IMG/VR virus record: IMGVR_UViG_3300050821_006317
Coordinates: 1-39,187 of that record
Reading direction: 5' to 3' (one strand)
Length of the DNA: 39,187 nt
DNA from: a virus
Under the pieces are notes generated by a model that did not search any database, was not told where the DNA came from, and worked only from the letters and a program-made list of their open reading frames with translations. The translations under genes and the position numbers were made by a program. This document shows, in pieces, positions 15,807 through 36,531 of the stretch (within the stretch, counting starts at the first letter, position 1; each line of letters opens with the position of its first letter).

Positions 15807-15931
15807 GATATGACACTATTCGATGGTACGAAGGACACGACGCGAAACGCGCCGGTTTGTCCTTCACAGCCTGCCCTTACGCCAAAGGCACATGGGAATC
15901 GGTCAATTGGAAGTGTGGATGGCTGTCATGA
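15803..15931 (+). CDS. Ribosome modulation factor (RMF)-like small protein
   Basis: 42 residues. MRYDTIRWYEGHDAKRAGLS, then CPY, then W-x2-GWLS follows the spacing of the RMF family (G-x-x-A-x-x-x-G...CPY...W-x2-GW). RMF dimerises and inactivates bacterial ribosomes in stationary phase. A phage copy may pause or retune host translation. The stop overlaps the start of the GP88-like gene (ATGA), so both are probably made together. The start is fixed by the repeated GGAG-AAATGCCAG leader. The family call rests on a short motif. Confidence 0.6.
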   Translation: MRYDTIRWYEGHDAKRAGLSFTACPYAKGTWESVNWKCGWLS

Positions 15932-16596
15932 CCTATACCACCATGGCCGCGGCCCAGCGCGACGCTGGCCAAGTCTCAATCCGCAATTCGAAAATGCCCG
16001 GTTCGACCTTCGCCGTGACGACCGATCATTGCAACGTCGGCGCAAAGCTGGCCAAGATCGAAGGCAGCACATGCCACGACTGCTACGCCATTCGAATCGA
16101 GAAGCGTTACCCTTCAGCGCATATGGGCTGGAGCTCCAACTACCTCAAGGCGACTCGCATGATCGAAGAACGGCCAGAACAATGGGCCGCGGCCATGGCG
16201 TTCCAGATTCACCGCATGGCGGAAAAAACATCTGAGCCGTTCCATCGATGGTTTGATGGTGGCGACATCGCATCACTAGCGATGTTGCGGGCGATCGTAC
16301 GTGTATGTGAGCTCACCCCGACCATTAAACACTGGTTGCCCACACGCGAGGCGGCTGTGGTCAAGGCGTTCATGGCCGAACGCACCTTTCCTTCAAACCT
16401 TGTAGTGCGCGTTAGCTCCACCATGATCGATGACAAGCCGATCGCCAGCTACGCGCATACGTCGACCGTACACACTAAGGCTTTAAAGCCTATGGGTACA
16501 GTATGCGAAGCCCGCACCCGCGGCAATATGTGCGGCCCCTGCCGCGCCTGCTGGTCCGATTCGGTCAAAAACGTCTCATATCCCTTGCACCACTAG
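15928..16596 (+). CDS. GP88-family phage protein
   Basis: 222 residues from the ATG at 15928, overlapping the RMF-like stop. IRNSKMPGSTFAVTTDHCNV, then GSTCHDCYAIRIEKRYPSAH, FHRWFDGGDIASLAML, HWLPTREAAVV, and NLVVRVSSTM are hallmarks of the gene product 88 family (PF17338) found in many phages. A Cys-rich end (GNMCGPCRACW) follows. Conserved Cys and His residues suggest metal binding, but the function is unknown. It ends the first early transcript just before a strong terminator. Confidence 0.82.
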   Translation: MTYTTMAAAQRDAGQVSIRNSKMPGSTFAVTTDHCNVGAKLAKIEGSTCHDCYAIRIEKRYPSAHMGWSSNYLKATRMIEERPEQWAAAMAFQIHRMAEKTSEPFHRWFDGGDIASLAMLRAIVRVCELTPTIKHWLPTREAAVVKAFMAERTFPSNLVVRVSSTMIDDKPIASYAHTSTVHTKALKPMGTVCEARTRGNMCGPCRACWSDSVKNVSYPLHH

Positions 16597-32708: not shown

Positions 32709-32904
32709 CGATAAGCCGACCCTTACGGCTTACGAAGCTGTCTGCTTCCTTATGAAGGCCCGCAATCTATCCTGGGAGGATGCTGACGCCCTATTGAAAA
32801 AGGGCATCGCCAGCGGCGCGTTGCCAACCTACGAACAGCTGGACAATGGCTTTCTACGCCTTACGCCGTCCGAAGAAGCTTTAAAAAAACTCGGTGAGGA
32901 ATGA
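32701..32904 (+). CDS. Small protein preceding the SNF2 helicase
   Basis: 67 residues from the ATG at 32701. LTAYEAVCFLMKARNLSWED, then ADALLKKGIASGALPTYEQL and LRLTPSEEALKKLGEE. It has a possible winged-helix shape. It is coupled to the helicase (ATGA). No family recognised. Confidence 0.55.
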   Translation: MSDDKPTLTAYEAVCFLMKARNLSWEDADALLKKGIASGALPTYEQLDNGFLRLTPSEEALKKLGEE

Positions 32905-34301
32905 GCGCGCTCGACCCGGTCCAGATCGCCGCTTTGGATTTCGCCCGCGACAAGCCTGGCGTCGGCTGGTTCCTTGAGCAGGGGCTCGGGAAAACCCTAT
33001 GCGCGCTCGCCGAATACAGCTGGTACGAAAAGCTGAGCGAAGCTGACCGGATGATCGTGGTCTGCCCCAACAGCTTCAAGACCGGCTGGATCGACGAGAT
33101 CGAGAAACACGGATTCGCCTTCGCTGAGCACGTCTTTCAATCGATCAAAAAAGAACAGGCCGAAATCTTCATCAACAACCATCACAACAAACCGCCAGTG
33201 TTCATTATCAATTACGAAGCGGTGCGATTGCCCGGCGTGCTCAAGGCGCTGGTCATGTGGGCTGAGCTCGGCCAGACCTACCTGGCGATTGACGAATCAA
33301 TCCAGATCAAGGGCAAGTCTCAACAAACCAAGGCGGTTCACCGACTAGCCGCGGCGTGCAAATACGTGCGCCTCCTGACCGGCCGACCGCAAACCCAAGG
33401 GCCACATGATCTGTGGGGCCAGTTGAAAGCCATCGGATTGTTTCCCGATATGAATTTCTACGCCTTTCGAAACACCTTCTGCGTCATGGGCGGGTGGCAG
33501 CTCAAACAGGTGGTCGGGGTTCGGAACGCCGAATATCTGGCGCGAACCATGGCCCCCGCGGTGTTTCAGGCGAAGAAGAAAGATTGGTTGCCCGAGCTGC
33601 CGCGCAAGGATTTCACCATTCGCGACTACGCCATGTCGGCCGAGCAACTGCGGCAATACGCCCAGATGGAGCACCAGTTCTTATTGGAGATCAAGACTGG
33701 CGTTATAACGGTGGAGGTCGCTGTCGCTAAATACGCCAAGCTCGCTCAGATCCAAACAGGTTTCATCTATGACGAACAGGGTAACACGCACGAACTTGTA
33801 ACCCCCGAGAAGAATCCACGTCTCCTCCTTCTTCGGCAGCTTTTGGAAGAGGAAACCGAGGGCAAGGTGTGTGTTGTCTATCGGCATCGCGCCATGCTCG
33901 ATGTTCTGATCAAAGCCTTAGCGCAATATGACCCAGCCTGGATCAAGGGCCAAATGAATCCTGACGATGTTGAAGAACAGAAATTGCGCTTCAACAATTA
34001 TGCCCCTTGCCGAGTCATCCTCTTGCAATGCGATGCGAGCAAATATGGTCACACTTTATTGGGTGGACCGGGTGCGGACGATCTCTGCCGAACCATGGTC
34101 TTCTTCGAAAATTCTTACAGCGCCGACACTCGCGATCAGATCGAAGACCGAATCCACCGGCGCGGGCAGACTGGAGAATCTGTACTCTATGTCGACCTAT
34201 CAGGATCGGATCTGGATCGCCGAATTGTCAAGGCGCTGCAGCGCAAGGACGAACTCTACCGCTCCGTTTTCCGTAATCTGAAGGTCGCAGAACCGGCCTA
34301 A
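32901..34301 (+). CDS. SNF2-type DEAD/DEAH helicase
   Basis: 466 residues. Motif I EQGLGKT at 26-32, motif II DESI at 131-134, motif III LTGRPQTQGPHDLW at about 159-172, and motif VI QIEDRIHRRGQ at 413-423. This is the SWI2/SNF2 order, with a short helical domain between the lobes. Such phage enzymes remodel or translocate on DNA during replication or recombination. The DESI box in place of the canonical DEAH is within family variation. It is the last gene of the early operon before the PEP-CTERM gene. Confidence 0.88.
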   Translation: MSALDPVQIAALDFARDKPGVGWFLEQGLGKTLCALAEYSWYEKLSEADRMIVVCPNSFKTGWIDEIEKHGFAFAEHVFQSIKKEQAEIFINNHHNKPPVFIINYEAVRLPGVLKALVMWAELGQTYLAIDESIQIKGKSQQTKAVHRLAAACKYVRLLTGRPQTQGPHDLWGQLKAIGLFPDMNFYAFRNTFCVMGGWQLKQVVGVRNAEYLARTMAPAVFQAKKKDWLPELPRKDFTIRDYAMSAEQLRQYAQMEHQFLLEIKTGVITVEVAVAKYAKLAQIQTGFIYDEQGNTHELVTPEKNPRLLLLRQLLEEETEGKVCVVYRHRAMLDVLIKALAQYDPAWIKGQMNPDDVEEQKLRFNNYAPCRVILLQCDASKYGHTLLGGPGADDLCRTMVFFENSYSADTRDQIEDRIHRRGQTGESVLYVDLSGSDLDRRIVKALQRKDELYRSVFRNLKVAEPA

Positions 34302-34338
34302 GACGTGCTAACCTATAACCACAGAAAGAGGGACAAAA

Positions 34339-34983
34339 ATGCATAAGCTTCTCCTGACAACCGTGTTCATCGCCGCGATGGCGATCCCCGCGCATGCGAC
34401 GCTGCAAATCGAAGTGTTCGACAACGGAACGCTGATCGACAACGTCACTGGAATCACCACCGGCGCAGCTTCGCTCACCGCCAATGACGCCAACTTCGCC
34501 AACATCACCATCGCCGCGCAAGGCTCGCCAATCCTGCCCAACGCGGACTTGTCCAGCGTCACCCTTGACGCCAGCGCAGCGTTAGGCTTCACCGGCTCGC
34601 ACATTCTGACGGTCGATGTGCTGCAAAGCGCGGTGACCGGGCGTGGAAATACACTCTCGACCTTCACCGTCAATGGTCTGACCAACGACCCCGGCCCGAC
34701 CACCGAATCCACCTTCGCCGATGGCGGACTGCTCGCCTCACACACCTTCCCGGTGGCGCTGCTCGATGGTTCTTTTGGGCCAGTTTCGGCAGCGACCGGC
34801 CCGTTCACCTCGGATGAAACGCAATTCGCAGTGGACTTCACCGCGCCGCGTCAATCATTCGGTGGCTCGATCCAGTTGACGACCGGCGTGCCGGAGCCCT
34901 CGACATGGGCGATGCTGCTTGCTGGTTTTGGGCTAGTCGGGTTAATTGGTATCTATAAAAGAAACACCCACGCGCTGGTCTGA
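34339..34983 (+). CDS. PEP-CTERM secreted protein
   Basis: 214 residues, with AGAGGGA before the ATG. The N-terminus MHKLLLTTVFIAAMAIPAHA is a signal peptide. The body is Thr/Ser/Asn-rich and beta-type (SLTANDANFANITIAAQGS, LSSVTLDASAALGFTGSHIL). The C-terminus is VPEPSTWAMLLAGFGLVGLI then GIYKRNT: the PEP motif, a hydrophobic helix and a basic tail. This matches the PEP-CTERM signal processed by exosortase in the host envelope. It is a host-type gene in a phage. TATAAC at 34314-34319 may be its -10. It could alter the host surface during infection, but this is inference. Confidence 0.85.
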   Translation: MHKLLLTTVFIAAMAIPAHATLQIEVFDNGTLIDNVTGITTGAASLTANDANFANITIAAQGSPILPNADLSSVTLDASAALGFTGSHILTVDVLQSAVTGRGNTLSTFTVNGLTNDPGPTTESTFADGGLLASHTFPVALLDGSFGPVSAATGPFTSDETQFAVDFTAPRQSFGGSIQLTTGVPEPSTWAMLLAGFGLVGLIGIYKRNTHALV

Positions 34984-35053: not shown

Positions 35054-35091
35054 GGAGGGGAGGACCGGACTACAGACTGGTCCTCCTCTCC
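35054..35091 (+). promoter_or_regulatory. 13-bp stem hairpin in a gene leader
   Basis: GGAGGGGAGGACC pairs with GGTCCTCCTCTCC (one G-T pair), with a 12-base loop. There is no T-run, so it is not a standard terminator. It lies 12 bases before the GAAATGCCAG motif. A shorter GGCGAG / CTCGCC hairpin lies near 34983-35001. Confidence 0.65.
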
Positions 35092-35113: not shown

Positions 35114-35212
35114 ATGATCGCTATAATTTTTATGTTCTTTGTTTTCTGCATCATCATGGCCATCATCAAGCGGTTTTTCCCCGCTTGGTGGAACCTGATC
35201 AACACACCCTAA
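35114..35212 (+). CDS. 32-residue membrane peptide
   Basis: MIAIIFMFFVFCIIMAIIKR, then FFPAWWNLINTP. One hydrophobic helix with a basic turn and an aromatic end. It is preceded by the strong hairpin and the GAAATGCCAG leader. Its stop overlaps the end of the convergent minus-strand gene by 3 bases. Expression is supported by the shared leader; the function is unknown. Confidence 0.55.
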   Translation: MIAIIFMFFVFCIIMAIIKRFFPAWWNLINTP

Positions 35213-36531
35213 TAAGCGCTGCCCAGCATCAGGTTTTTGATCGCGTCGCCGACCTGCGGACCGGGCTGCGCTCCTGTGAGTTGCTGCCCGGTCATCTGCG
35301 GATAAGCCTGCTGAATGGCCTTTCCCAGAGCATTCTGCTTCGCCCCCTTGAACGCCCCCTTGATTGCCGGCTTGATGCCTAGATAACCAAGCCCTTCGCC
35401 GATGAAATGGCCAGGGAAACCGAACATCGCTCCACCAATGTCGCCCGCTAAGCCAGCTGCCATGTGACCTAATGCCCAGCTAGGATCCTGTTGGCTTTGA
35501 CTTTTCTGATAGAGATCAACCAAGGTCTGGTATTGCGGTTTGCCCTGGTACCAGTTCTCGGCCTCGGTCAGCGGCGCTTGGCCTAGCGGCGCCCCCGCCG
35601 CAGCCTTGCGCTGCCACTCAGCCAGGTTCTGCGCCATGGCGTATTGCTGATGCGCTTCGTTGGCCGCCTGCAGCGTCTGCTGTGCTTCGGGCGGCAGCGC
35701 GCCCAGGAGATTGTCGGAGATCTTGCCAGCCAAGATCTGATCGCCGTTGCTGGTCGCCTGAGCGCGAAGATCCTTGGCGAAGTCAGCAACGTCATTCGCC
35801 GATATTCCGCCCGCGTTGATCTGCGCCAGTTGGCGGCCAATCAGGGTGTTGAAAGTTGACGTGACGCTTGGCTCAAGACCCGGCGTGAGTGTCGCCGACG
35901 CATAGGCGTTCTTGAGGCTGTTGCTACCGACCGGGATGTTCTGCAACTTCCCATAGAGAGCGTCGCGTGTGGTCTTGGTCGCCGCGATCGCCGCCTCCGG
36001 ATCGACGGAGCCGGGCGTTGCGCCCAATTTAGCAACGCCCTTGCCGATGCCGCCGGCTACACCCCCCAACGCCGCCCCGCCAGCCGCGCCCATACCTGTC
36101 GAGGTCGGATCGAAATTGCTTCCGAACCCCGAGCTCAATCCGCCCGCCATGGCGCCCTCGGCCACGCCTGCGGCAATCGGGCCGCCAGTCATCGCCGCAG
36201 CCACCGGGCCGAGAAGCTTGCCAGGGCCAACGGCGTAAGCGCCGATCTCGGCCGGGTAGCGCACGATCGCGGGCACACTCTGCCGCGCCGCCTCGGTTTG
36301 CGCCTGCTGCGTCGCCAGCGAAGGCATGCCGGGGAGTTTAGAATAAGCCCAGTCGGCTCCACCAAGCGTGAGGGCATTCTCGAGCGTGCGGCCGATTCCG
36401 CTCATCTTGGATGAGGCGTCAGCGCTCGGGCCACCGAACTTCGCTTGCAACGCCGAGGTCATAGTACTGGTCGGCGTGCCGTCAGGGAACTGCGCCGTCC
36501 CGCCGTCAGGCGTGTTGACAGTAATGGTCAC
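35209..36531 (-). CDS. Putative internal virion / DNA-ejection protein
   Basis: 440 residues. The start (MTITVNTPDGGTAQFPDGTP, TSTMTSALQAKFGG) has the PDG-x-x-x-FPDGTP-type opening of phage internal proteins. Gly/Ala-rich hydrophobic stretches follow (LLGPVAAAMTGGPIAAGVAE, GAAGGAALGGVAGGIGKGVA), which may insert into membranes. A helical part comes after (AQQTLQAANEAHQQYAMAQN) and a second Gly-rich region (AAGLAGDIGGAMFGFPG). This resembles podovirus ejection proteins that form a channel for DNA. It is coupled to the gene before it (ATGA). The family call is by resemblance. Confidence 0.62.
   Translation of the reverse strand: MTITVNTPDGGTAQFPDGTPTSTMTSALQAKFGGPSADASSKMSGIGRTLENALTLGGADWAYSKLPGMPSLATQQAQTEAARQSVPAIVRYPAEIGAYAVGPGKLLGPVAAAMTGGPIAAGVAEGAMAGGLSSGFGSNFDPTSTGMGAAGGAALGGVAGGIGKGVAKLGATPGSVDPEAAIAATKTTRDALYGKLQNIPVGSNSLKNAYASATLTPGLEPSVTSTFNTLIGRQLAQINAGGISANDVADFAKDLRAQATSNGDQILAGKISDNLLGALPPEAQQTLQAANEAHQQYAMAQNLAEWQRKAAAGAPLGQAPLTEAENWYQGKPQYQTLVDLYQKSQSQQDPSWALGHMAAGLAGDIGGAMFGFPGHFIGEGLGYLGIKPAIKGAFKGAKQNALGKAIQQAYPQMTGQQLTGAQPGPQVGDAIKNLMLGSAY

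Follow-up and report, generated by a model that had tools for sequence, protein, structure and literature searches.

A PEP-CTERM-tagged gene carried as exchangeable cargo by phages, and its putative processing by a host exosortase

Organization of the phage genome and its cargo gene

The window, by which we mean the whole stretch of DNA analysed here, corresponds to one complete IMG/VR virus record (39,187 bp). Its gene content (SU10-type portal, large terminase, head protein, tail fibre, primase and helicase) is podovirus-like, and the window proteins searched included no integrase. The gene of interest starts 37 nt past the stop codon of a DNA helicase and is followed by a hairpin and a convergent virion module (Table 1). 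This placement, with its short gap, its GAGGGA site and its hairpin on the 3′ side, suggests co-transcription with the helicase, an inference made from sequence alone.

Table 1. Features of the window discussed in the text (dN/dS values are medians).
Feature	Position	Strand	Basis and remarks
SNF2-type DNA helicase	32901..34301	+	PF00176, phrog_62; ends the rightward module; marker of the cargo slot (slot census)
GAGGGA, ribosome-binding-like site	34328..34333	+	5 nt before the cargo-gene ATG; basis is sequence
PEP-CTERM (exosortase-substrate type) cargo gene, 214 aa	34339..34983	+	Open ORF with ATG start; curated models; relatives
Signal-peptide-like segment MHKLLLTTVFIAAMAIPAHA, residues 1-20	34339..34398	+	Sequence varies in the family, pattern kept; dN/dS 0.30
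Phage-restricted core, residues 21-182	34399..34884	+	Predicted beta-sandwich; mean column conservation 90%; dN/dS 0.116
PEP-CTERM domain match, residues 184-204	34888..34950	+	PF07589; VPEPSTWAM motif and start of hydrophobic helix; motif dN/dS 0.096
C-terminal hydrophobic helix MLLAGFGLVGLIGIY and basic tail KRNTHALV	34912..34980	+	dN/dS 0.49; residues free to vary, pattern kept
Strong hairpin, 15 bp stem	35054..35091	+	Separates cargo gene from convergent virion module; resembles a terminator but lacks a T run
First gene met of the convergent module	35209..36531	-	Right border of the slot; conserved in relatives (cluster c13)
c2, proline-rich PDQGLP/PVDPDYG-repeat protein, 208 aa	12039..12665	-	Between terminase and portal

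The N-terminus carries a hydrophobic, AxA-like segment that is conserved across the family, and from this pattern and its conservation we infer a signal peptide. The core of the window protein is rich in Ser, Thr and Asp, and residues 21-183 of the structure model consist of strands only, which leaves no transmembrane region between the signal segment and the PEP-CTERM domain.

The closest isolated relative is the Ochrobactrum phage vB_OspP_OH (Wolominvirus), whose head protein and terminase are 63% and 52% identical to those of the window and whose helicase/virion junction is the same. However, its junction holds no annotated gene, and nothing in this phage matched the PEP-CTERM protein. This relative is virulent (PMC7139368).

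Between the hairpin and the virion module, positions 35114-35212 (+) could encode a 32-aa single-helix membrane protein (MIAIIFMFFVFCIIMAIIKRFFPAWWNLINTP) behind a AAGGAAATG-like site, which may be a product of chance; unrelated small hydrophobic ORFs lie at the equivalent position in loci L005, L025, L007 and L020. At the start of the rightward module, a GP88-family protein (PF17338) of unknown function is encoded at 15823-16596 (+).

The PEP-CTERM tag

The C-terminus of the window protein passed the curated cut-offs of PF07589 (PEP-CTERM; 30.9 bits against 20.7), of the NCBIfam model NF035944 (PEPxxWA-CTERM; 39.1 bits against 35) and of TIGR02595 (21.1 bits against 16). The pattern of PEPxxW, hydrophobic stretch and basic tail occurs once in the window and was absent from 200 codon-shuffled windows. 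A sequence-only reading made beforehand had claimed a signal peptide and a canonical C-terminus of VPEPSTWAM, hydrophobic helix and basic tail, to be refuted if the PEP-CTERM model failed there; the tag claim held, while the signal peptide, seen as a pattern and conserved in the family, is still judged from that pattern. At sequence level the gene certainly encodes a phage-borne PEP-CTERM substrate, and it very likely represents a family of such substrates.

At the family level, the best match of the whole protein was to the FxDxF family (NF038126), but the score of 40.4 bits does not reach the cut-off of 50, and only residues 161-203, in the tag region, are covered; the core alone matched none of the NCBIfam models. 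The layout resembles that of the PEP-CTERM proteins associated with the exosortase EpsH (PF07589, TIGR02595; Haft et al. 2006, PMC1569441), with which it shares the signal-peptide-like start, the PEP motif, the hydrophobic helix, the basic tail and a core without known homologs. However, the window gene sits on a phage without exosortase and closely behind a phage helicase (37 nt), whereas EpsH-type genes follow a large intergenic region. A sigma-54-type site has also been reported upstream of many proteobacterial PEP-CTERM genes (PMC1569441), whereas no such -24/-12 element (TGGC-N6-8-TTGC) was found in the 250 nt upstream of the cargo gene.

Distribution of the cargo-gene family

Across 2.9 million viral contigs (IMG/VR), 68 loci of the cargo-gene family were detected, so that the search for related genes in other phage contigs, which the first reading had proposed, found many; a first query had given 78 loci, as it also catches other tagged proteins. 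Most of the 43 members that were aligned share 74-87% identity with the window protein, while three share only 56-60%. A few members have the altered motif PELSTWAM, on which the Pfam model failed. In one member (L058, 1339-1998) the PEP-CTERM tag is replaced by a VPGP...GAGLPG tail that fails all models; this tail, VPGPVVGAGLPG...RRK, may be a further sorting tag used by the same hosts.

Outside these contigs the core was not recovered. It had no match among 50,697 isolated phage records, and a bacterial genome collection, covered up to a set number of matches, gave only weak matches or matches to the tag; the core was also absent from the bacterial loci that were fetched. Profile searches of 297 Bradyrhizobium-family genomes and of 385 alphaproteobacterial genomes yielded no full match, the two matching genomes being hit in the tag region only. 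While the tag of the PEPxxWA-CTERM variant (NF035944) is abundant in Bradyrhizobium and other alphaproteobacterial genomes, the window core was thus not found in the alphaproteobacterial genomes searched. These bacterial core searches included no positive genome in the run, and the absence is therefore strong, not absolute. Recent capture from a known host gene was rejected, as no bacterial core homologue turned up in the collections searched. We found no earlier report of a phage PEP-CTERM protein in the open-access literature searched, subscription papers being outside that search; what is new is not the tag itself but its use as exchangeable phage cargo.

Exchange between phages and selection on the cargo gene

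Among phages that share the helicase junction, DNA similarity continues through the flanks. In all the others it is limited to the gene, typically to bases 50-595 of 645, and unrelated backbones showed no similarity within 3 kb on either side, save for a short stretch in three loci. The phage contexts of the gene are of at least five kinds, including the helicase junction, the order TerL - c2 - gene - portal, the order portal - c8 - gene - head protein, and several more in phages of 65-80 kb. The earlier description of the gene as moron-like is supported, since unrelated phages share homology only as far as the borders of the gene. Morons with which phages modify the surface of their host (genes of superinfection exclusion or lysogenic conversion) are likewise small single-gene cargo at module borders, are exchanged between phages and have a predicted action at the envelope. 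In contrast to these, the window gene uses a C-terminal sorting tag of the host, no sign of lysogeny was seen in the proteins searched, and its function is inferred.

The beta-sandwich could also be a virion component serving as a particle decoration or adhesion protein, as the orders portal - c8 - PEP-CTERM - head protein and TerL - c2 - PEP-CTERM - portal in two groups of loci might suggest. However, the signal-peptide-like start and the hydrophobic C-terminus are kept in all contexts, the window copy lies outside the virion module, and the gene is absent from the isolated relative, which has a related virion module; we regard this explanation as unlikely.

The core and the PEP motif are under strong purifying selection (dN/dS ~0.1), and the values obtained for the four segments (Table 1) indicate that core and recognition motif are kept, while the signal segment and helix keep only their pattern. 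This bears on two rival explanations. The first is an exosortase decoy, that is, an abundant substrate that would saturate or jam the host exosortase and block the display of host PEP-CTERM proteins, its core mattering little; the tag is indeed the feature common to all the different phage cores. However, a decoy would not need a core, and this one is under strong purifying selection (dN/dS 0.116), which makes the explanation very unlikely. The second is chance capture of a host gene without function in the phage. The tag is of the host type, but the low dN/dS, the variety of contexts, a near-fixed slot and the lack of a close bacterial source in the collections searched all but exclude it.

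A near-fixed slot with variable cargo

For a census of the helicase/virion junction, loci were retrieved by the helicase alone, so that no cargo was favoured, and those with a helicase identity of at least 70% and enough downstream sequence were kept (28 loci, including the window). One or two PEP-CTERM genes follow the helicase in 26 of the 28, either directly or after one small or proline-rich gene. The window core occupies the slot in 20 loci, an LQLSI-type core in four and an ALTLWN-type core in two; a second, different PEP-CTERM gene is present in three, and two (L251 and L258) have none. More distant helicase relatives (48% identity or less) lack a PEP-CTERM gene at this position. Several census contigs are near-identical copies from sister assemblies, so that independent cases are fewer than the counts. 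The junction is nevertheless a near-fixed slot for exchangeable cargo with at least three different cores. The gene does stand between helicase and virion module as first described; it is one of several kinds of gene that fill the slot rather than an isolated curiosity. Host chromosome joined to the contig, which would have overturned the first reading, was not observed: host contamination is rejected, since phage sequence lies on both flanks and the slot recurs in these relatives.

Over all the phage loci examined, a regular-expression rule gave 97 distinct tagged proteins, one of them clearly spurious, in at least six core groups. Another of these groups (L189) passes the bacterial FxDxF model NF038126, with 50.7 bits against a cut-off of 50. 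In phages of 73.8 and 78.0 kb (L047/L182 and L048), a second, structurally different PEP-CTERM protein, glycine-rich and of about 250 aa, is encoded ~2 kb from the first.

Exosortases and candidate hosts

No exosortase was found in the 48 phage records searched, which extends to 47 related records the earlier remark that the window has none. In contrast, an exosortase is present in 13 of 18 bacterial genomes picked for carrying similar tags, and all 11 exosortase-bearing genomes tested encode 12-70 PEPxxWA-CTERM proteins each. The exosortase that was to be sought in the predicted host was thus found in candidate hosts, and the claim that processing would depend on the host is supported by its absence from the phages.

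For two of the phage types, relatives have been isolated whose hosts are Rhizobiales: Ochrobactrum in one case and, for a 64-kb type whose isolated relative is distant (28% identity), Rhizobium in the other. Because candidate genomes have both tags and exosortase and these relatives infect Rhizobiales, a Bradyrhizobium-like host is plausible, though inferred, as the host was not identified directly. A link through prophages was too weak to be retained (head protein 31-39% identical, in 9 of 297 Bradyrhizobium-family genomes). Processing of the phage protein by a host exosortase is likely, since, through the exchanges between phages, no part of the gene is better preserved than the motif, while cleavage and delivery are inferred.

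Possible function of the core

The model of the window core is a beta-sandwich of moderate confidence (pLDDT 70). Its fold had no significant match among PDB structures or viral models, and no relative was found in the PDB by sequence. The LQLSI sister core models better (pLDDT 78) and resembles Bd1399 of Bdellovibrio, several carbohydrate-binding modules (CBMs) and phage receptor-binding or spike domains (E 4e-7 to 6e-4, TM at most 0.48; for several CBMs, E 1e-4 to 5e-4, TM at most 0.48). A profile alignment of the two cores gave 99% probability, much of it owed to the ends that the two have in common. Glycan binding can be no more than a reasonable guess, inferred from a fold match that is the sister core's and not the window core's. 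A search with PADLOC gave no match, which leaves a defence or anti-defence family unsupported.

The mechanism that we propose is inferred, no experiment bearing on export, processing, surface location, glycan binding or masking. The signal peptide would export the phage protein through the inner membrane, in which the C-terminal helix would hold it. The host exosortase would recognise PEPSTWA and cleave the protein or transfer it to the cell surface or extracellular polysaccharide, a step modelled on proposals for the host's own PEP-CTERM proteins. The conserved beta-sandwich would act on the envelope of the infected cell, where binding, masking or remodelling of surface glycans may protect the cell from further phage adsorption. 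The gene itself, as the comparisons above show, moves between phages as a unit and has its slot in common with other PEP-CTERM cores.

Surface masking or superinfection exclusion is our leading guess for the outcome, but a weak one, less likely than not. Surface masking is best known from prophages, and masking of that type fits poorly here because no integrase was found among the proteins searched and the isolated relative is virulent. Receptor masking also predicts that cores might follow the tail-fibre type, and the absence of co-variation between the two in 42 PEP-CTERM-bearing records (9/24 against 11/18, p=0.21) counts against it. The core as an immunity matched to the tail fibre was rejected, as the tail-fibre C-terminus does not follow the core type. 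The role in surface change, adhesion or superinfection control that the sequence-only reading had offered as inference remains so, this indirect test being negative.

Ranked second, and possible, is matrix remodelling, in which the protein would join or disturb the exopolysaccharide matrix of the host. The resulting change in flocculation or biofilm would allow progeny to spread, or would either keep the infected cell in the aggregate or free it. Bacterial PEP-CTERM proteins have been tied to exopolysaccharide (PMC1569441), pepA is involved in floc formation (PMC9850573), one phage cargo (L234) weakly matches the floc-associated PepA (27 bits against a cut-off of 80), and the sister core has a glycan-binding-like fold. 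However, the window core has no similarity to PepA or to any NCBIfam family, and the host matrix is unknown.

Whichever outcome applies, the best overall explanation in our view, for and against which the case is finely balanced, is a phage cargo protein that serves as a substrate of the host exosortase and alters the envelope of the infected cell. PEP-CTERM/exosortase sorting is widespread in environmental bacteria and its purpose is poorly understood. A selected phage gene that bears the tag across unrelated phages offers a handle on that purpose, as it implies that the phage needs something placed where exosortase delivers its substrates. The gene further points to a new means by which phages may change the surface of their host, and since its cores are exchangeable, the function can be tested by comparing them. 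Should the sorting step be confirmed, phages might also influence the flocs and biofilms that soil bacteria form. A bolder reading, which we put forward with some doubt, is that soil Rhizobiales phages have a dedicated, near-fixed slot for interchangeable exported proteins addressed to the host exosortase. We found no description of such a class of phage-host interface; if it exists, the slot would give phages control over the surface or matrix display of the infected cell.

A proline-rich partner gene

Beyond the first reading, we observed a pairing of PEP-CTERM genes with the proline-rich gene c2 in many relatives. In the window, c2 lies 22 kb from the cargo gene. Its family counts about 170 loci in viral contigs, and the protein has no signal segment; no match was found among isolated phages or in 199 Bradyrhizobium-family genomes. 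In different, unrelated phages it stands ahead of PEP-CTERM genes with several types of core, and it is directly upstream of one in about 25 of about 66 non-identical c2 loci listed. The linkage is real, yet c2 is also found without PEP-CTERM genes. Loci with c2 include L029, L036, L043, L216 and L227, among others. In L222, L231 and L234 the PEP-CTERM cargo is of another set, tagged with VPEPASLLLLGG and again placed behind the proline-rich gene, which suggests that phages of another host group share the habit.
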